45,603 nt of DNA from a virus, in IMG/VR virus record IMGVR_UViG_3300025132_006985, positions 1-45,603 of that record. One strand, given 5' to 3'. The notes below the pieces were generated by a model. That model worked only from the letters and a program-made list of their open reading frames with translations. It made no database searches and was not told the origin of the DNA. This document shows, piece by piece, positions 2,966-35,518 of this stretch. Position 1 is the first letter of the stretch, and each line of letters starts with the position of its first letter. The translations under genes were made by a program, and so were the position numbers.

Positions 2966-3034
2966 TCAACAACGCGGTTGACGCCAGACTTGACGAAGAT
3001 GGGGCAAGATGGCAATCGCCGCCGACCTTGGTGA

Positions 3035-24057: not shown

Positions 24058-26136
24058 ATGCGTAAGAAATTGCTCGCTGCGGCCGCCTCGGCCGCGGTGC
24101 TTTCTGCCGTGCCCGCGGCCGTGCTGACGCGCGACAGCGAGGCGCCGGCGGATAATCTGCTCTATCGCGACATCACGTTCGAAGTTCGGTCGGAAACGAT
24201 CGACGAAGCCGAGCGCACGGTCGAGCTGAGCTTTTCGTCGGAAGCCCCCGTGGAACGCTGGTGGGGCACCGAAATACTGGATCATGGCGGCGCGTCGGTT
24301 CGGCTTGGACGGCTGAACGGCGGTGCGGCGCTGTTGATGGACCACAATCACCGGGACCTGGTGGGCGTGGTCGTGAAAGCCTGGGTGAAGGGGCGCATCG
24401 GTCGCGCCATCGTGCGATTTGGACAATCGGCACGCGCCAAGGAAATCTTTCAGGACGTCGTTGACGGTATCCGAAAGCTGGTGAGCGTCGGATATCGCCC
24501 GCACAAAGTCGTGCTGGAAAAGCAGGAAGGCGATCAGGCCACCTATCGCCTGATGGATTGGGAGCCGTTCGAAATCAGTTTCGTCTCGGTTCCCGCAGAC
24601 ACGACGGTCGGCGTCGGTCGTGATGGCGACCCGTCGGCATTTGATCCCCGAAACCTTGTTGAAGAAGAAGAGGACGACGACATGCGGCTTAACCGTAATG
24701 CCGGCGGCGGCGCTGCGCCGATCGCCACCCCCGCCGCTGCGCCCGCTGCCCCGGCAGCGCCTGCAGCTCCCGAAACCCGCGGCGCTCCCGCCGCGTCTGC
24801 GCCGACCGTTCCGGCAGCGCCCGGCGTCAGCGATACCGAACGCGCCGCCATTGCGACCGCCGAACGCGACCGCATTGCGAATATCCGTGCGCTCGGTCAG
24901 CGCCTGAACGCCGGCGACCTCGCCGACACGTCGATTGCCGAAGGGCATTCGATCGAGGCGTTCATGCGCGCCTTCACGCAGGCGCAGCCGAATGCCACCC
25001 CGGTGCGCACCGCCGAAAGTCCCGTCATCGGGATGAATTCGCAGGATCAGCAGCGCTACAGCTTCCTTCGGGTGCTTCATGCGCTTGCCAATCCGAACGA
25101 CCGCCGGGCGCAGGAAGCCGCGACGTTCGAATTCGAATGCTCGGAAGCGGCTCGCCAGCTGCGTCCCGGCGCCGAATTTCAGGGTGCGATCACGGTCCCG
25201 GCGGACGTCATTCGTGCCGCGATCGACCCGTCGCGTCAGCCCGGCCAACGCGACCTGACGGTCGGCACGGCCACGGCGGGCGGCAACACGGTCGCGACCG
25301 ACCTGCTCGCCGCCAGCTTCATCGAGCTGCTGCGCAATCGCATGGCGCTGCAGGGCCTTGGCGCGCGCGTCATGACCGACCTGAACGGCAACGTCGCGAT
25401 CCCGCGCGCGACCGGCGGCGCAACCGCCTATTGGGTCGCGGAAAGCGGCGCACCGACCGAAAGCCAGCAGGCTTTCGACCAGGTGCCGCTGACGCCGAAA
25501 ACCGTCGGTGCCTTCACCGACATTTCGCGCAAGCTGCTGCTGCAAAGCTCGATCGACGTCGAGGCGTTCGTTCGTCAGGACCTCGCTACCACGCTGGCGC
25601 TGGCGATCGACCTCGCCGGCATCAACGGCAGCGGCGCGTCGAACCAGCCGCGGGGCGTGATGCAGACCGCCGGTATCGGTTCGGTCGCCGGCGGCACCAA
25701 CGGCGCGGCCCCGACGTGGGATCATATCGTCAAGCTAGAAACCGAAGTCGCGATCGACAATGCCGATGTCGGGGCGCTCGCGTACCTGACCAACAGCAAG
25801 GTTCGCGGCAAGCTCAAGACGACCCAGCGCTTTGCCTCGACCGACGGCGGCGCCATCTGGTCGGACGACAACCGCCTGAACGGCTACAATGCGGCCGTCA
25901 GCAATCAGGTCCCGTCCAATCTGACGAAGGGCACCGCCGCTGGCATCTGTTCGGCGGCGCTCTTCGGCAATTGGGCCGACCTGATCATCGGCATGTGGGG
26001 CGGCCTCGACCTGCTCGTCGATCCCTACAGCAATTCGACCAGCGGCACCGTCCGCATCGTCGCGCTGCAGGATGTCGATGTCGCCGTTCGCCACGCCGAG
26101 AGCTTCGCGGCCATGGTCGATATTCTCACCGACTAA
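24058..26136 (+). CDS. Fused prohead protease-major capsid protein (HK97 type)
   Basis: This 692-aa polypeptide joins an S78-type prohead protease to an HK97-fold capsid protein. The protease part has LLMDHNH (His96), KLVSVGY (Ser143) and EISFVSVPAD (172-181). An acidic stretch and an Ala/Pro-rich linker (about 218-256) follow, then a helical scaffold-like delta region. The capsid domain runs from about residue 375, with NGNVAIPRATGG and INGSGASNQPRGVMQTAG. The first 24 residues resemble a signal peptide, which is odd. An internal ATG at 24682 (Met209) has AGAGGA 8 nt upstream, so the capsid part may also be made separately. Confidence 0.93.
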   Translation: MRKKLLAAAASAAVLSAVPAAVLTRDSEAPADNLLYRDITFEVRSETIDEAERTVELSFSSEAPVERWWGTEILDHGGASVRLGRLNGGAALLMDHNHRDLVGVVVKAWVKGRIGRAIVRFGQSARAKEIFQDVVDGIRKLVSVGYRPHKVVLEKQEGDQATYRLMDWEPFEISFVSVPADTTVGVGRDGDPSAFDPRNLVEEEEDDDMRLNRNAGGGAAPIATPAAAPAAPAAPAAPETRGAPAASAPTVPAAPGVSDTERAAIATAERDRIANIRALGQRLNAGDLADTSIAEGHSIEAFMRAFTQAQPNATPVRTAESPVIGMNSQDQQRYSFLRVLHALANPNDRRAQEAATFEFECSEAARQLRPGAEFQGAITVPADVIRAAIDPSRQPGQRDLTVGTATAGGNTVATDLLAASFIELLRNRMALQGLGARVMTDLNGNVAIPRATGGATAYWVAESGAPTESQQAFDQVPLTPKTVGAFTDISRKLLLQSSIDVEAFVRQDLATTLALAIDLAGINGSGASNQPRGVMQTAGIGSVAGGTNGAAPTWDHIVKLETEVAIDNADVGALAYLTNSKVRGKLKTTQRFASTDGGAIWSDDNRLNGYNAAVSNQVPSNLTKGTAAGICSAALFGNWADLIIGMWGGLDLLVDPYSNSTSGTVRIVALQDVDVAVRHAESFAAMVDILTD

Positions 26137-27839: not shown

Positions 27840-29078
27840 ATGCCCGATCCGATTATTCGCACGACCAATGTCGCGATGCTGTTCAAGCTCGAGACGACCG
27901 AAAATGTCGATGCTGCACCTGTCGCGGCCGACGCCTTCCCGTTCGAAGAGGACGGTTACAGCTATAATTCGCCCTACAGCTCCGAAGGGTCGAACGAAGC
28001 GAACGGCTCGCTCGTCGCGGCGGCGCCGCTGATCATCGGCCAGCCTGCCGAAATTTCGATCCGTTGCCGCCTCAAGGGCATCGCCGGCGCAACCGCCTAT
28101 TCGGCGAGCGTCAAGCCGCCGCATCATGCGCTGCTGTCGGCGAGCGGGCTTCGCGGGCTGTTCACCGCCGCCATCACCGGTGCGGCGCTGACCGCAGGCT
28201 CGACGACTTCGGCGACGCTCGGCGCCGCCTTTGCCGCCATCGCGCAGGCCTACCGCGGCATGCCGCTTGCGATCACGGGCGGCCCTGGTAACGGCCAAAC
28301 CCCATTCATCGCCGATTACACGGCGGGCAAGGTAGCGACGCTGACCGACACGATGCCGACGCTGACGACTTCGACGATCGCGGGCATCCCCGACAACTGG
28401 ACCTATGCGGGCACCAGTCCACAGGACGTCGCCGCCCGCACGACCGACCATCCGTCGGGCACCCTCTATATCTATGAGGACGGCACGCTGTTGAAGTTCA
28501 CCGGCTGCCGCGCGACGCCCGACGATATCGCGGTCGACACGGCGCGGCCCGGCTTTGTCACCTTCAAGCTGATGGGCGTTTTTGCGGGCAAGTCCGATGC
28601 GGCAATCCCGAGCGGCCTTGCCGTGCCGGGTCATAGCGCCCCGATCCTCGCACAGGGTCTCGGCGGTCTCGACGCATCCTTCCTCGTCAACCGCCTGCCG
28701 CTGCCCATCGCGACGCTGTCGGTCAAGCCGGCGTCAGCGCTGGAAAGCCCCGACGATCCGAACACGGCCTATGGCTTCGCCGCGGCGCAGCTCGGCGAGC
28801 GGTCGCCGACGCTGACGTGCAACCCGCTCGGAACGACCGTCGCTGTTCGCAACACCCTGAACCAGATCGCCGCTTACACGCAATATCCGGGGATTATCCG
28901 TTGCGGCAGCGCGGTGCGCAATCGGTGGGCCATCACCTTCCCGGTGCTGCAGCCCGTCGAAAGCGCGCCGGGCACGCGCGGTCAGTTCCGGTCCGAAGAC
29001 CTGTCGCTGCGCATTCTTGCGCCGTCGTCGCGTGATCCGCAGAGCCGCGACAACGAACTTGTTCTCTGTTTCTGGTGA
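27840..29078 (+). CDS. Major tail tube protein
   Basis: The 412-aa protein begins MPDPIIRTTNVAMLFKLETTEN after a GGGAG Shine-Dalgarno sequence. It is rich in Ala, Gly, Thr and Ser with many predicted strands, as in large siphophage tube subunits. Examples are PAEISIRCRLKGIAG and LYIYEDGTLLKFTGCRATPDDIAVD. The VTFKLMG and ATLSVKPASALESP segments are compatible with a duplicated tube domain. It precedes the frameshifted chaperone gene, as is standard. Confidence 0.85.
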   Translation: MPDPIIRTTNVAMLFKLETTENVDAAPVAADAFPFEEDGYSYNSPYSSEGSNEANGSLVAAAPLIIGQPAEISIRCRLKGIAGATAYSASVKPPHHALLSASGLRGLFTAAITGAALTAGSTTSATLGAAFAAIAQAYRGMPLAITGGPGNGQTPFIADYTAGKVATLTDTMPTLTTSTIAGIPDNWTYAGTSPQDVAARTTDHPSGTLYIYEDGTLLKFTGCRATPDDIAVDTARPGFVTFKLMGVFAGKSDAAIPSGLAVPGHSAPILAQGLGGLDASFLVNRLPLPIATLSVKPASALESPDDPNTAYGFAAAQLGERSPTLTCNPLGTTVAVRNTLNQIAAYTQYPGIIRCGSAVRNRWAITFPVLQPVESAPGTRGQFRSEDLSLRILAPSSRDPQSRDNELVLCFW

Positions 29079-29084
29079 GCTGAC

Positions 29085-29771
29085 ATGGCTGAATTGATGA
29101 CAACCACGACGGCGCCGACGCGGTTCGTTCCGCAATGGCGTCGGGACGACCCCGACGCGCCCGCCTTCATGCTGCGCGCCGGCTCGGTCATCGAGCGCGA
29201 ATCGCTCGAGGCCGAGTTGGCGGGCGAGCATCGGGCGGGGCGCGTTTGGCCCTATGAGCTGGCGAACGTGCTGTGCGATGCGTTCCGCGCGATCGGCGGC
29301 GAGGATGTCGGCCTGTTGATCGGCCTTGTCGAGCGCGAGCAGGGGGCGGCGCTGCTCGGCGGCGAAAAGCTGGACGACACCGACCAGGCGACGCTCGACG
29401 GCGCGCGGCAAGTCGCAATCGAATATTGGCCCGACTATGCCGCGCTGGTCGCGCAGATGCAGCGGCGCGAGTTGTTGTTGCCGATCCTTGCATTCCGTCG
29501 CTTCTGCGTCGGTTGGGAGAATGTGAAAGGCACGTTCAAGCGCGGCCTCGGCGGCGTTGTCGATGACAGCGCATTGAAAAGCGTCGATCCGCTGCACATG
29601 CGTGCGGCGGGAATCGAGGCCTACAATTTGCTCTATCTGGACCCGAGTGCGGAAAAAAACTCCGCGGCGCCCTTACCGTCGAGCGATTCCCCGCCGATTT
29701 CCGGTTCGGGCGAACCTTTGGCGACGGGTGGGACATCGGCCCCGACCGATGGAGCGCAAACCCAGCCATAG
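29085..29771 (+). CDS. Tail assembly chaperone, short form (gpG-like)
   Basis: The 228-aa product of the unshifted frame starts at ATG 29085. Its body is helical (LANVLCDAFRAIGGEDVGLLIGLVEREQGAALLGG includes the core). It ends in a Ser/Pro-rich tail after the slippery site. Such proteins coat the tape measure during tail assembly and are not in the virion. The same start yields a longer -1 product through A AAA AAC at 29654-29660. Its place just before the tape measure block is standard for gpG. Confidence 0.85.
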   Translation: MAELMTTTTAPTRFVPQWRRDDPDAPAFMLRAGSVIERESLEAELAGEHRAGRVWPYELANVLCDAFRAIGGEDVGLLIGLVEREQGAALLGGEKLDDTDQATLDGARQVAIEYWPDYAALVAQMQRRELLLPILAFRRFCVGWENVKGTFKRGLGGVVDDSALKSVDPLHMRAAGIEAYNLLYLDPSAEKNSAAPLPSSDSPPISGSGEPLATGGTSAPTDGAQTQP

Positions 29772-29965
29772 TTATCCCGCGCGACGTCCGGTTCGCGGTC
29801 AAGATGTTTCTCGCATCGAAACAGGCCGCGAGCGGGCCGCTGGGCGGCGGTGCGGCGCTGATCGGCGCGGGGAGCCTGCTAGACCAGCCCGCCGCCCTGA
29901 CCGACGCCTTTGCCCTGTTGGAGCGCCTGTTGCATGAGCAGCTTTCGGACCGACCTGACGGTTGA
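29085..29965 (+). CDS. Tail assembly chaperone, -1 frameshift form (gpGT-like), 293 aa
   Basis: Ribosomes that slip back one base at 29654-29660 leave the short frame after 192 codons and read 101 more codons from 29660 to the TGA at 29963-29965. The added domain begins LRGALTVERFPADFRFG. It includes RDVRFAVKMFLASKQAASG and ALTDAFALLERLLHEQL, which looks like a folded helical domain. It has no start codon of its own that would give the full domain. Its end overlaps the next gene's start by 32 bp. Known lambda-like GT proteins bind the tape measure through this T domain. Confidence 0.8.
29654..29660 (+). promoter_or_regulatory. Programmed -1 ribosomal frameshift site (A AAA AAC)
   Basis: The heptamer A-AAA-AAC is in the exact phase needed: codons GAA, AAA, AAC in the zero frame. 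It fits X-XXY-YYZ, one of the most efficient bacterial slippery sequences. A possible weak stem (GGTT/AACC) lies about 43 nt downstream; no strong pseudoknot is obvious. Confidence 0.82.
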
Positions 29966-30611
29966 CGAGGCCAAGCTAAACGCCGACCTCGATCGCTGGA
30001 TTTCCGACGTCCTGCGCGCCGGAACCGGGGCGATCCGCACGACGACGCGGAAGCTGGAAAAGGCGCTGGAAACGACGACTCGGTCGACCGTGAAAGGTCG
30101 GCTGCATCGGGCGTGGAAGAGCCAGGCGTTTCCGGCGGCCGATATCCCCGCCTATTCGCCGCAGGGCACTGTCTATGTCAACGGCGGCAAGCGGTCGCAG
30201 GGCGCGATGCAATATTGGACGCAACCCGGTATCAACAAAAGCAAGGCGGGATATTGGCTCGCCATCCCGACCCCGGCGGCGGGATCGCGCGGCCGCGACC
30301 GTCATATCACGCCGGGCGAATGGGAGCGGCGAACGGGCGTGCGCCTGATCTTCGTCTATCGCGGCGCCAGTCGACCGGCCTTGCTGGTCGCCGAAGGGAC
30401 GCTGGCCAAGGGCGGGCCGTCGTTTCGGGAATTTACCGAGGCGCGTCGCCGCGGCGGGCAGCATCCGCACGTCACGGTGCCGATCTTTGTCCTGATCCCG
30501 TTTCAGCGCTTTGCGAACCGGATTTCGATCAAGCCCATTGTGCTGCGGCACGAGGCGATTTTGGCGAGGGATTTCGAGGCGCGGGTGGCGCAACTCGAGC
30601 GGGCTGGTTAA
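29934..30611 (+). CDS. DUF6441-type phage tail-region protein
   Basis: The 225-aa protein starts at ATG 29934. The central part, GYWLAIPTPAAGSRGRDRHITPGEWERRTG-VRLIFVYRG, together with LLVAEGTL and VPIFVLIPFQ, matches the pattern I recall for DUF6441 phage proteins. These often sit between the tail chaperone and tape measure genes. Role unknown, perhaps tail completion. Its TAA overlaps the TAA of the oppositely oriented membrane gene at 30608-30611. Confidence 0.8.
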   Translation: MSSFRTDLTVDEAKLNADLDRWISDVLRAGTGAIRTTTRKLEKALETTTRSTVKGRLHRAWKSQAFPAADIPAYSPQGTVYVNGGKRSQGAMQYWTQPGINKSKAGYWLAIPTPAAGSRGRDRHITPGEWERRTGVRLIFVYRGASRPALLVAEGTLAKGGPSFREFTEARRRGGQHPHVTVPIFVLIPFQRFANRISIKPIVLRHEAILARDFEARVAQLERAG

Positions 30612-30928
30612 TCAGACGCCATCGGGATCAACACGATTTGACAGTGTTTGCAGCGTGTCGCCGATTTGGGGACGAAGCTGCGACATTCAGGGCAAGGCGC
30701 AACTTTGGAGGTGTCGACCTTGAGCGGTCTCGCCGCGACGCCCTCGAATACCCTCCCCGCGCAATAGGGGATGACGACGAAAGAAAGGCCGATGACGGAT
30801 GAGAAGTCGGGTCCGCCGCCGGTGCCCATGCCGAATAGAGAACCGAAAAGAAGATAGGTGGCTACCGCGCAGCCGAGGATAGTTAGGCCGTGGCAAATGT
30901 CGGCAAGGTTCCACCATATTTCTCGCAT
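30608..30928 (-). CDS. Membrane protein with C-terminal zinc ribbon (moron)
   Basis: The 106-aa protein has two hydrophobic segments (LTILGCAVATYLLFGSLFG and VIGLSFVVIPYCAGRVF). A zinc ribbon follows: CPECRSFVPKSATRCKHC, CxxC..CxxC. A GGGGGA Shine-Dalgarno sequence precedes the ATG. It lies on the minus strand inside the rightward tail operon, 4 bp downstream of the RHH gene, so the two form a small separate operon. The position and orientation suggest a lysogenic-conversion gene, perhaps affecting the host envelope or superinfection. That is inference. Confidence 0.8.
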   Translation of the reverse strand: MREIWWNLADICHGLTILGCAVATYLLFGSLFGMGTGGGPDFSSVIGLSFVVIPYCAGRVFEGVAARPLKVDTSKVAPCPECRSFVPKSATRCKHCQIVLIPMASD

Positions 30929-30932
30929 GTTA

Positions 30933-31109
30933 TCATTCCCCCAAATGGTGGCGAAGGATACGTCGAATTGCTTCCGGGCGCGAGGGGGAATCGGTTTGTT
31001 CAGCTATCCAGCGATCGACTGCAGCCAACTCGTCCGGCGGCAGTCGGCAGTTGACGGATGTTGCGCCTACCTTGGGCCGCCCGCGTTTTCTTGCACCAGA
31101 AATTGACAT
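30933..31109 (-). CDS. Ribbon-helix-helix (CopG/Arc-type) regulator, 58 aa
   Basis: The sequence begins MSISGARKRGRPKVGATSV. The strand (TSVNCRLPP) and two helices (DELAAVDRWIAEQ and SRPEAIRRILRHHL) form the RHH fold, which binds DNA as a dimer. It probably represses its own promoter. A direct repeat of CTGG-YR-CAAGAAAA spans the start codon. The gene is co-oriented with the membrane zinc-ribbon gene and divergent from the 31193 gene. Confidence 0.8.
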   Translation of the reverse strand: MSISGARKRGRPKVGATSVNCRLPPDELAAVDRWIAEQTDSPSRPEAIRRILRHHLGE

Positions 31110-31128
31110 AGCGATTTTCTTGTGCCAG
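31086..31128 (-). promoter_or_regulatory. Candidate RHH operator: 14-bp direct repeat
   Basis: On the minus strand, CTGGCACAAGAAAA (31128-31115) and CTGGTGCAAGAAAA (31099-31086) match at 12 of 14 positions and are spaced 29 bp apart. One lies upstream of the RHH start codon, the other within its first codons. Autoregulation by the RHH protein is a reasonable guess; no promoter consensus is clear here. Confidence 0.45.
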
Positions 31129-31192
31129 TTAATGCGGGCCGAAGCAAGGTTACCGCCTCGCTCCGACCCTAACCTGAAACATGGAGTGACCC

Positions 31193-31510
31193 ATGATCCA
31201 AGCTGATGACGGCCATAGCAGCCGAGACCCCGCGCCGTCAGCGGGGAATATCGAAAAAAATTCCCCCCGGTCCACCGGAAAGGGCGAGGCGATTTCCGGC
31301 GTGCTGGGCGCGATGGAACGCAACGACGTCTATTATGCACTGAGCATGATCGACGCGCGGGCGACGGCGCTTCGCCAGATGCTTGAGTTGGTCAAATCCG
31401 CGCGGGATATAGACGATCATGTTCGCGCGCTTCTGGACGTCATTGGCTTCGAGGTCATGGCGATCGAGGATTTGGCAGACGAACAGATGCGCGAAAGGAC
31501 AATCCAGTGA
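31193..31510 (+). CDS. Hypothetical protein preceding Rha
   Basis: The 105-aa protein begins at ATG 31193 after GGAG. The first 35 residues are polar and probably disordered. The rest is helical (RNDVYYALSMIDARATALRQMLELV in part). Its stop overlaps the Rha gene's GTG start as GTGA. It is divergent from the RHH gene. No family recognised. Confidence 0.7.
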   Translation: MIQADDGHSSRDPAPSAGNIEKNSPRSTGKGEAISGVLGAMERNDVYYALSMIDARATALRQMLELVKSARDIDDHVRALLDVIGFEVMAIEDLADEQMRERTIQ

Positions 31511-32244
31511 GCGCGCTGGTCGAGCTGACGCAGTTCGGGGCGCGGACGAATAGCCGGATCGTCGCCGAGGTTTTCGAAAAAGAGCATAAAAACGTCCTGT
31601 CCGCGATTGACGATATTCTCGAAAAAAAGCCCGAGCTGCGACGGCTTAATTTTCAGCCGTCGCGGGCGGTGGTTCAGGCGGGCATCCATCAGCGCGAGGT
31701 GCGCGCCTTCGAAATGGATCGCGACGGCTTCACGCTGGTCGCGATGGGATTTACCGGGGCGAAGGCGCTCGACTGGAAGATCGCCTTTATCGACGCGTTC
31801 AACCGGATGGAGGCGGCGCTGCGATCGGAGGCCGAGGCCGACCGGGACGCCGAACCGTTGGTGATGCGCGACTATTCCCCCGCGCTAGCGGTTATCCGCG
31901 AAGCGCGGCAAATATTCCCGCCCAAGGCGGTGCGCGACTTGTGGCCCCGGCTCGGCCTGCCCGATCCATATCGCCGGGCAGCGATTGGGTCGGGCGAGGA
32001 TGGGCTGGCGCTGATCGACGACAGCATTTCGGCCTGGCGCGATGCTTGTACGGTTGACGAAGACGGCACGACAACACGCGCAAACGAACTTTGGGCCAGC
32101 TATTGCAGCTGGTGCGAAACCTCGGGCCGGGCGGGCGTCAATCAAACGCGGTTCGGGCGGGCGCTGACGAACATGGGGTATCGACCGGCGAGGGCGAGCG
32201 ATTCTGGCTATGTCCATCGGCATGGGCTCAAGCTGATCGACTGA
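31507..32244 (+). CDS. Rha-family phage regulatory protein with extra C-terminal domain
   Basis: GTG start at 31507. The N-terminal half is a clear Rha domain: RIVAEVFEKEHKNVLSAIDDIL, then FEMDRDGFTLVAMGFTGAKALDWKIAFIDAFNRME. Rha proteins are phage regulators or antirepressor-like factors. The C-terminal part from about residue 165 (ISAWRDACTVDEDGTTTRANELWASYCSWCETSGR, then FGRALTNMGYRPARASDSG) resembles the winged-helix tail of D5/P4 primases. The combination suggests a DNA-binding regulator expressed in the tail block. Confidence 0.85.
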   Translation: MSALVELTQFGARTNSRIVAEVFEKEHKNVLSAIDDILEKKPELRRLNFQPSRAVVQAGIHQREVRAFEMDRDGFTLVAMGFTGAKALDWKIAFIDAFNRMEAALRSEAEADRDAEPLVMRDYSPALAVIREARQIFPPKAVRDLWPRLGLPDPYRRAAIGSGEDGLALIDDSISAWRDACTVDEDGTTTRANELWASYCSWCETSGRAGVNQTRFGRALTNMGYRPARASDSGYVHRHGLKLID

Positions 32245-32314: not shown

Positions 32315-35300
32315 ATGACTACCGATGTTGTCGCACGGCTTCGGCTGCGCGCGCAGGATTTCTCGCGCGACGTTCGCAAGGCGTTCGACGATGTTCCCGC
32401 TGTCGCCGACAAGGCGGGGCGTGAAGCCGGCACCCGCATGGGGGAAGGAATCGGATTCGGGTTGAAAGGGGCGTTGTCGGGTATCGCCCTTGGCGCCATC
32501 GTCAACGAACTCGCACAAGTGACGAAGCGCGCCGTCGACTATGGTGTCGAGCTTGGCAACAATGCCCGAGCGCTGAACGCAAACGTCGAGGAATTGCAGG
32601 CCTATCGCCAGGCCGCCAGTGAGGTCGGCATCGTCAACAAAACGCTCGACGACGGATTGCAAGAGCTGTTCGAATCGATGACGGAAGCAGCGGGCGGGGG
32701 CAAGGATCAGGCAGCTGCATTCAAAGAATTGGGCGTTTCGCTGGTCGATGCGAACGGCCACGCGCGATCGACCACGTCCGCGATGGGTGAGGTTATCGAC
32801 AAACTTCGCGCGATTCCGGACCCTCTCGCTCAGGCCCGGTTGGGGACCGAGATTTTCGGCGATAAGTGGCGGGACATGGCGCCGCTTCTGTCGGCTGGTT
32901 CGGACGGCCTGCGCAATTTGACGGGCAGCATTCTTGAAACCGGCGATGCGCTTTCGACCAAGGAAATTCAGGAGCTGAACCGGATCAACGCCGAGCTCGA
33001 GCATATGAAAACGACCTTCGAGGTCGATTTCAGCCGGATTGTCGCGGCAAACGCCGATGCAATCATCGCCATGGGGCGGGCGTTGGGTTATGTGGCTGGG
33101 CTCGCGGCGCAGGCGGCGGCATCGGTCGCGTCGTTTTTCCAGACTGCGCAAGGTTTCGCAAATATGCGCGAAACCAAAGGGATATTTGCCGCGTTGAACG
33201 CGACGCCGGGACAAGCGAAGCAGTGGGCGACACCGTCGGGTGCGATCATGCAACAGCGTGACGCCATCGCCAATCTGAAAAAGGATATCTATTCCCCTGG
33301 TGGCTACACCACCGATTTGATATTTAACGGCAGTAAAAAGGCGGCACAGCTGCGCGATATGGAACGCGAGCTGGGCCAGATGCAGCGCGCCGCTTTAGCG
33401 CGAGGCGATTTTTTCAATGTCACACCGCTGGCGTCGACTGTCGGCGGGCTCGCCAATATCAAGCCGCCGAAGGTTGGCGGCGGCGGCGCAGCGCGCTCGC
33501 GCAGCGGTGGGGGCGGCGGGGTCGACAAGGAAGCGCGCGAGCGCGAGCAAGCCGCCAAGCGGCTGCGCGCCGAATATGAGCGCATCGTCGACACGCTCGA
33601 CAAGGATATCGAAAAGCAGCGCATCGCAGCCGAGGTCGAGGCGATCCGCGCCATGGGGCTGGAGCGCGAGGCCGAGAAGCATGAAAAGATCAACGAGATC
33701 GCGGCGCGCTATCCCAAGTTGATCGGCACGACGGCAGCGCAGCTCGCCAAGGATTTCAACATCACGGTCGCCGAGGCCGAGGCCGAGCTGAAAAATCTCG
33801 ACAACTTGCGCCTGAACGCGCTGCTCGAGATCGATATCAAGTTCGATAAAAAGGCGGCCGATGCTGCCGCCAAGGCCATCGCCGCAGGTATGAAAAAGCA
33901 GGTCGAAGCGCAGCAGGCGATGCAGAAGGAAAATCGCGATCGCTCGGCCGAGCAGGCGCGCCGCCAGTTCGAGGACCTCTCGTCGGCCTATTTCGACCTG
34001 TTCGACGGCAATACGCGCAACCTGTGGGACAATTTCAAGCGCCTTGGCCTGAACGCGCTCGCCGAGCTGGCGGCGGACCAGACGATGAAACTGCTCAATG
34101 GCGAAAAGGGCGCCAATCTGGGCGACAGCCTGACCAAGCTATTTTCGGCGCAGAAGGGCGACTTGATCGGCGGCATGCAGAAGGGCGCGCTGGCATCCAG
34201 CATCGCCGATGCCATCGGCATCAAGCAGTCGAAAACGGGCGCGATGGCGGGATCGGCGATCGGCACCGTCGCGCTAGGGCCATTGGGCGGCGCGATCGGC
34301 GGTCTGCTGGGCGGGACGCTGGGCGGGCTGCTGAAAAAGACTCCGCGCGGTTATGCGACGATCGGCGGCGAGGGCGGCGACCTGCGCATCGTCGGTGCCG
34401 GCGGGAACAGCAAGGATGCCCGCGCGCAGGGCAACAAGGCCGCGGGTGCCACGCTGACGTCGCTCGACCAGATCGCTGCCGCGCTGGGCGGCACTTATGA
34501 CGCGTCGCGGGGCAAGGTGTCGATCGGGCGCAGCGGCGACAGTTGGCACGTCGATACATCAGGTCGCGGCAAGCTGAAGAAAAGTCAGGGCGGGTTCGAT
34601 TTCGACGATGATTATGAGGCCGCGGTGCGCTTTGCCACGATGGACCTGATCAAAGACGGCGTCCTGCAGGGCATTTCGGACGCGGCGCAACGTATCCTGC
34701 AGTCGGGCGATGATATCGAGCTGGCGCTGGAAAAGGCGTTGATGATCGAAGAAATTCCCAAGCGCCTGAAAGCCCGGCTCGACCCGCTCGGTGCGGCGCT
34801 CGACGATATCGACGCGCAATTCACCCGGCTGGCCGACGTACTGCGCGAGGGCGGCGCCAGCGCCGAACAGATCGCACAGGCGCGGCAATTGTGGGAGCTG
34901 GAGCGCGCCGACGCCATCCGCGAAATCGGTCAGGCTTCGGCGACGTTGCGCGATTACCTGAAAACGCTGCGGATCGGGGCCGACAGCCCGTTGTCGCTGC
35001 GGACGCAGGCGATCGAGGCCGAGGCGGCCATGGCACCGTTCGTCGACCAGATTCGCAAAGCCGAGGCCGCGCGGGCGAACTATGATCGCCTGGCGGCGTC
35101 GAAGGCAGCGGGTGGCGCGGTGAGCGAAGCCGAACTGAAGGCGGCGAAAGATGCCGCCACGGCGGCCGCCTCGGCGGTCGATCAGAGCGGATTCCGTGAC
35201 AGTGCGGCGCTGTTCCTTGATGTCGCGCGTCAGCTCGGCGGGTCGACCAAGAGTTTCTTTGACCAGTTCGACCGTATTCAGGGGTTGACCAACAATGCGA

Positions 35301-35518
35301 TCGCGCTGGTCGAAAATGCGGTGCCGCTGCGCGGTGACGCCAAAGACCCCTTTGCCGAGCTGACCGCAAAATCGACCCAGGCGGCGGCGAACATCCTCGA
35401 CGCCCACACGGCGCTGTTGCAGCGGATTGCGAATAGTATCGGCGGTGTCGGTCTGGGCGGCGGCGGCGACGTTTTCATCGGCGGCGGTCGCGGCTTTACC
35501 AACAACGCGCTACGCTGA
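32315..35518 (+). CDS. Tail tape measure protein
   Basis: At 1067 aa it is the longest protein in the window. It is largely helical and Ala-rich, with coiled-coil blocks (about 400-530) and hydrophobic segments (SGIALGAIVNELAQ; YVAGLAAQAAASVASFF; AIGTVALGPLGGAIGGLLGG). The glycine-rich segment near residue 660 is typical of tape measures. At about 0.15 nm per residue it predicts a tail near 160 nm. ATG 32315 follows a GGGGTGA Shine-Dalgarno-like stretch. It lies downstream of the chaperone pair, separated only by DUF6441 and the regulatory cassette. Confidence 0.92.
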   Translation: MTTDVVARLRLRAQDFSRDVRKAFDDVPAVADKAGREAGTRMGEGIGFGLKGALSGIALGAIVNELAQVTKRAVDYGVELGNNARALNANVEELQAYRQAASEVGIVNKTLDDGLQELFESMTEAAGGGKDQAAAFKELGVSLVDANGHARSTTSAMGEVIDKLRAIPDPLAQARLGTEIFGDKWRDMAPLLSAGSDGLRNLTGSILETGDALSTKEIQELNRINAELEHMKTTFEVDFSRIVAANADAIIAMGRALGYVAGLAAQAAASVASFFQTAQGFANMRETKGIFAALNATPGQAKQWATPSGAIMQQRDAIANLKKDIYSPGGYTTDLIFNGSKKAAQLRDMERELGQMQRAALARGDFFNVTPLASTVGGLANIKPPKVGGGGAARSRSGGGGGVDKEAREREQAAKRLRAEYERIVDTLDKDIEKQRIAAEVEAIRAMGLEREAEKHEKINEIAARYPKLIGTTAAQLAKDFNITVAEAEAELKNLDNLRLNALLEIDIKFDKKAADAAAKAIAAGMKKQVEAQQAMQKENRDRSAEQARRQFEDLSSAYFDLFDGNTRNLWDNFKRLGLNALAELAADQTMKLLNGEKGANLGDSLTKLFSAQKGDLIGGMQKGALASSIADAIGIKQSKTGAMAGSAIGTVALGPLGGAIGGLLGGTLGGLLKKTPRGYATIGGEGGDLRIVGAGGNSKDARAQGNKAAGATLTSLDQIAAALGGTYDASRGKVSIGRSGDSWHVDTSGRGKLKKSQGGFDFDDDYEAAVRFATMDLIKDGVLQGISDAAQRILQSGDDIELALEKALMIEEIPKRLKARLDPLGAALDDIDAQFTRLADVLREGGASAEQIAQARQLWELERADAIREIGQASATLRDYLKTLRIGADSPLSLRTQAIEAEAAMAPFVDQIRKAEAARANYDRLAASKAAGGAVSEAELKAAKDAATAAASAVDQSGFRDSAALFLDVARQLGGSTKSFFDQFDRIQGLTNNAIALVENAVPLRGDAKDPFAELTAKSTQAAANILDAHTALLQRIANSIGGVGLGGGGDVFIGGGRGFTNNALR

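Follow-up and report, generated by a model that had tools for sequence, protein, structure and literature searches.

The window, the whole stretch of 45,603 nucleotides that we analyzed (positions 1 to 45,603 of IMG/VR virus record IMGVR_UViG_3300025132_006985), carries on its plus strand a gene that begins with an ATG at 29085 and can be read in two ways. Read without a shift, it extends from 29085 to 29771 and encodes a gpG-like product of 228 codons plus stop. At 29654–29660, the slippery heptamer A_AAA_AAC lies in X_XXY_YYZ phase of the 29085 frame (codons GAA AAA AAC), and post-slip reading from base 29660 gives a –1 frame extension of 101 codons plus stop (29660–29965, with the stop at 29963–29965) that would encode a gpT-like domain. 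Both the phase of the heptamer and the length of the open –1 frame had been claimed in a preliminary description of this DNA, and translation confirmed them. The two products would have in common the 192 aa encoded by 29085–29660, predicted to be a mostly helical domain, and the unshifted frame continues for 36 codons beyond the heptamer, so that a hydrophilic tail is encoded over the start of the –1 domain (dual-coded overlap, 29661–29771). The –1 frame is open from 29567; however, its first ATG, GTG or TTG is at 29804, inside the –1 domain, so there is no start codon for the full-length domain, as the preliminary description had also stated.

The gene is preceded on the plus strand by a tail tube protein gene (27840–29078; the start at 27840 was picked by eye, and the queries used 27837), which has homologues of 56–64% identity and is called "tube" by position, as annotated in RcKemmy. 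It is followed by a plus-strand gene for a DUF6441 protein (29934–30611; PF20039, E 2.3e-16), whose ATG overlaps the end of the –1 frame and which is an annotated minor tail protein in Rhodobacter phages. The tape measure protein gene lies further downstream (32315–35518, plus strand; PF10145, E 1.4e-10, and PHROG tape measure families), and the order in the window is head-tail attachment (27064), 27392, tube, chaperone gene, DUF6441, Rha cassette and tape measure. The order tube, chaperone, tape measure given in the preliminary description is correct in that the gene lies between the other two, but it passes over the DUF6441 gene and the regulator cassette that stand before the tape measure gene. 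When we compared 17 loci, 15 of them with the chaperone gene, we found the tube gene before it and the DUF6441 gene after it in 15/15, and there was a tape measure match further downstream in 9/15, the other stretches being short. In L020 (5998–8203), the tube gene continues directly into the tape measure gene, and both the chaperone gene and the DUF6441 gene are missing, an arrangement that is either a deletion or a misassembly; L020 was excluded from the tallies below.

Single-sequence scans yielded no confirmed relative in viral contigs (shared part and –1 domain), and no relative in genome contigs (shared part), in phage records (shared part of the window and of L054) or in plasmids (–1 domain). 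We reached relatives via the neighboring tube and DUF6441 genes and then with profiles of both domains. By tblastn, the shared part and the –1 domain occur together in 11 related contigs, and in 11/11 of these the –1 domain match starts directly 3' of AAAAAA. Altogether, –1 domain homologues are present at 73 loci besides the window. A –1 domain without homologues in related prophages had been named in the preliminary description as a point against frameshifting; in fact, many related phages and prophages carry it. Several entries stand outside the 74 loci as repeats (L105 is the L092 locus, L106–L108 are L091, L090 and L093, and L102 is the L079 contig), and the 13 host-genome places in the tally may in part overlap with prophages that are also present as IMG/VR contigs. 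A sphingomonad is the probable host of the window, because the named host contigs among the relatives are Sphingobium and Sphingomonas.

Loss of the heptamer with both frames kept had been named as a second point against frameshifting. We found that in 68/74 loci, window included, the junction of the shared part and the –1 domain is marked precisely by an in-phase AAAAAAC or GGGAAAC. The first set of 54 distinct contigs, which includes the window, has AAAAAAC at the junction in 32 and GGGAAAC in 16 (48 in all), and further viral contigs have a junction heptamer in 7/7. An independent survey of 397 genomes of a Sphingomonas host's family, searched with the –1 profile alone, gave 13 genomes with a match at 14 places, including four in which profiles recognize the shared part poorly or not at all, and one of the two heptamers is at the junction in 14/14; one of these places was a locus already counted, and 13 were added to the tally. 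The loci are related by descent, and the tallied counts are not independent events. When loci were grouped into 46 clusters at 95% identity, AAAAAAC was at the junction in 26 clusters and GGGAAAC in 15. As a control, the shared parts upstream of the junction in the 46 cluster representatives contain a single in-phase heptamer in 8606 codons. As a bare word, AAAAAAC is about as frequent in the window as expected by chance (3 occurrences over the two strands against 2.15 expected; 39 of 100 shuffles reach 3); judged from the aligned loci, chance falls far short of explaining its in-phase position where a conserved –1 domain begins. Six of the 74 loci depart from the pattern: L063 has AAAAAAC 3 nt upstream, L064 has A_AAA_AAA, L062 has A_AAT_TTT, L067 has C_CCT_TTG, and L046 and L047 have none. 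In these last two (about 2970–3000), both frames are kept without an X_XXY_YYZ heptamer, and the local sequence is CGG ACT TTT C, which points to a different way of slipping or to an error.

An alignment of 46 sequences of the –1 domain contains 7 invariant columns, and the conservation of the domain begins right at the heptamer. Its frame is –1 relative to the shared part in 54/54 contigs, and among the loci tallied we saw none with both domains in one frame. These data bear on the possibility that the locus consists of two separate genes, the second translated by re-initiation, or of one gene broken by an indel. Re-initiation could suit the 7/74 loci with a first-frame stop directly after the heptamer; however, in the window no start codon precedes the –1 domain, the conservation of the –1 frame starts right at the heptamer, and the same –1 offset in all 54 contigs is not that of a random indel. 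We consider both forms of this explanation very improbable.

At this fixed place, K-N and G-N are exchanged for one another between loci via three bases of the heptamer, and the X_XXY_YYZ form and the final C are unchanged, which looks like selection on the slippery signal and speaks against transcriptional slippage. Long A runs can make RNA polymerase slip, and the window has a run of seven A (29653–29659) on which transcriptional rather than ribosomal slippage could give access to the –1 domain. Transcriptional slippage needs a long run, but many relatives have only A6 before the C, the GGGAAAC found in 25/74 loci contains no long run, and the X_XXY_YYZ pattern and its C are kept as tandem tRNA slippage needs. 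Transcriptional slippage is therefore a highly unlikely route to the –1 domain.

The preliminary description called the site canonical, which is right for its X_XXY_YYZ form but not for a known efficiency, since A_AAA_AAC is described as weak in E. coli, where it is much less shift-prone than A_AAA_AAG (PMC5009743). In search of stimulatory elements, we found that a stem can form downstream of the heptamer in the window and some relatives; RNAalifold gave no consensus structure for the downstream region in any of six runs. Compared with random windows from the same loci, this region has a higher stability (mean z –0.85), but the excess disappears when the comparison is with synonymous recodings of the –1 protein (mean z +0.32; window –0.48), indicating that the stability above random windows comes from coding content. 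Upstream of the heptamer, Shine-Dalgarno (SD)-like 4-mers occur at 6 to 14 bases in 15/46 clusters as compared to 9.3% of control windows, and over a wider span in 24/46 as compared to 20.6%, in both cases with kinship ignored; in the window, there is no SD-like site upstream of the heptamer.

Neither domain belongs to a described sequence family that we could detect: searches of Pfam and PHROGs with the 46 members gave no family matching more than one member, and sequence searches of the PDB gave weak, seemingly unrelated matches only. Profiles of the shared part and the –1 domain show no detectable similarity to single sequences of lambda gpG and gpT, which membership in this highly diverged family would not require. 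The AlphaFold2 model of the shared part has a mean pLDDT of 93.9 and is mostly helical, and that of the –1 domain has a mean pLDDT of 83.2. Foldseek searches with both models gave nothing significant; for the shared part, no viral match was significant and YqbN (3klu) had E 1.1. Among 995 aligned chains, the best match of the shared-part model was YqbN (3klu), with Z 6.0 where unrelated folds can reach 6 and the next chain has 4.5; the alignment has an rmsd of 4.6 over 97 residues at 11% identity, and it favors a chaperone fold without proving one. The –1 domain model matched no solved fold among the 17 chains compared. YqbN of Bacillus subtilis is called a phage tail assembly chaperone and is grouped with HK97 gp13 in PMC9603447. 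HK97 gp13 itself is not among the structure matches listed for the shared part.

The gene resembles the G/GT gene of lambda in that it follows the gene for the major tail protein and precedes that for the tape measure protein, as on the lambda map. The lambda shift site is G_GGA_AAG, in contrast to the A_AAA_AAC of the window, and the window also differs in its long overprinted hydrophilic tail, in the DUF6441 gene and regulator cassette before the tape measure gene, and in the lack of detectable sequence similarity between the genes. In Rhodobacter RcC phages, likewise, a tail assembly chaperone annotated as a two-piece product is encoded between the tube and tape measure genes, and in RcKemmy genes 15/16 we found G_GGA_AAC in phase. 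In contrast to the window, the DUF6441 gene of these phages precedes the tube gene, and profile comparison showed no relation of either chaperone domain of RcKemmy to ours. A chaperone frameshift is described as usual in the Rhodobacter phages of PMC8601537, and the prediction of tail chaperone frameshifts is treated in PMC10885494. The haloviruses HCTV-1, HCTV-2 and HCTV-5 are a further point of comparison: in the g-t genes of HCTV-1 and HCTV-2, the shift sites are G_GGA_AAC and A_AAA_AAC (PMC5009743). These viruses have archaeal hosts, and their likeness to the window is drawn from the shift sites.

These comparisons also bear on the possibility that ribosomes do shift frame here but that the two products serve the tail in some capacity other than that of a gpG/gpGT-type chaperone. 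This would suit the lack of any family or sequence match to known chaperones, the weak fold matches, and a downstream neighbor that encodes DUF6441 rather than the tape measure protein. However, the gene follows the tube gene in 15/15 loci carrying it, it has the two-product architecture, and YqbN is the best solved match, so we regard another kind of tail factor as unlikely. Synteny, the two-product architecture and the weak fold match suggest that the gene very probably has a chaperone role, and the gpG/gpGT-type reading of the preliminary description gains support from the conserved in-phase heptamer, the conserved –1 domain and synteny. We are confident that this gene encodes tail assembly chaperones of the lambda G/GT type and that it is translated with programmed –1 ribosomal frameshifting. 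The signal, the two frames, their conservation and the signs of selection on both overlap frames are evident in the sequences; slippage itself, its rate and the roles of the two products are inferred.

By programmed frameshifting, most ribosomes would read the 29085 frame to 29771 and produce the 228-aa chaperone with a hydrophilic, probably unstructured tail. On a minority of ribosomes, tRNA-Lys and tRNA-Asn on AAA AAC would slip together to AAA AAA and reading would continue in the –1 frame, giving a 293-aa fusion (192 + 101 residues). In lambda, a –1 shift near the 3' end of the gene adds the second domain, and roles for gpG and gpGT are described (PMC5009743). By analogy, the common product may coat the tape measure protein and the –1 domain of the rarer fusion may bring in tube subunits.

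The overlap itself carries signs of both frames. The unshifted tail has a length of exactly 36 codons in 20/46 clusters, and as read from alignments its stop overlies the codons for the conserved ENPRL segment of the –1 domain. S, A, P, G, K and T are abundant in the tails. To compare them with what the –1 protein alone would dictate, we swapped –1 codons for synonymous ones drawn from the same genes, using tails that span 15 codons or more. The tails have a hydrophobic fraction of 0.032 as compared to a mean of 0.165 in the recodings, and it is lower in 43/43 loci. The same recoding had no effect in the later –1 domain (0.254 vs 0.232) or in the middle of the shared part (0.220 vs 0.225). In the window alone, the tail goes in the same direction (0.083 vs 0.202), which is not significant (P 0.19). 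In the 20 clusters with a 36-codon tail, divergence at four-fold sites is 0.467 in the overlap and rises to 0.572 beyond it; within the overlap, it is 0.314 in the first nine codons and 0.627 in codons 10–18. Thus, both overlap frames seem to be under selection, which is evidence that both products are made. In 7/74 loci (L033, L044, L054, L097, L113, L114 and L121), a first-frame stop directly 3' of the heptamer (AAC TGA or AAC TAA) has done away with the unshifted tail, indicating that it is not indispensable.

On balance we favor a reading in which the 36-codon overlap is truly dual-coded. The disordered, S/A/P/G/K/T-rich tail would be selected as such and would keep the common product soluble or set its interaction with the tape measure protein, shifted chains would swap this tail for the folded –1 domain, and the loci with a stop after the heptamer would be a second, tail-less solution. 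We found no overlapping disordered tail of this kind in the literature, judged by titles and the starts of abstracts, which is weak evidence of its absence from print.

The gene belongs to a divergent family of the known lambda G/GT kind, and the –1 frameshift itself is a known trick of long-tailed phages. What is new here are domains beyond Pfam and PHROGs, an overprinted tail that is kept hydrophilic and two interchanging heptamers. Literature listings contained no report of sphingomonad phages with a frameshifted chaperone, again weak evidence of absence from print. A large, unannotated family is added to the frameshifted tail chaperones; profile libraries miss it, and annotated sphingomonad phages and prophages therefore probably lack an entry for the fusion domain. 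The signs of selection on both overlap frames provide sequence-only evidence that both products are used, and they offer a test of the role of the unshifted tail.

Two other parts of the window's structural gene region are worth describing. Inside the tail operon, between the DUF6441 gene and the tape measure gene, a cassette at 30608–32244 contains two minus-strand ORFs, which by eye encode a possible membrane/zinc-ribbon protein and a possible ribbon-helix-helix protein, and a Rha-family regulator at 31507–32244. Homologues of the 30933 ORF and of Rha occupy the same place in L040, L045 and L090. At 24058–26136, a 692-aa ORF matches the major capsid family at E 3.5e-52, has a weak match to a prohead protease (E 0.0072) and resembles the annotated capsid-protease fusion of RcKemmy.
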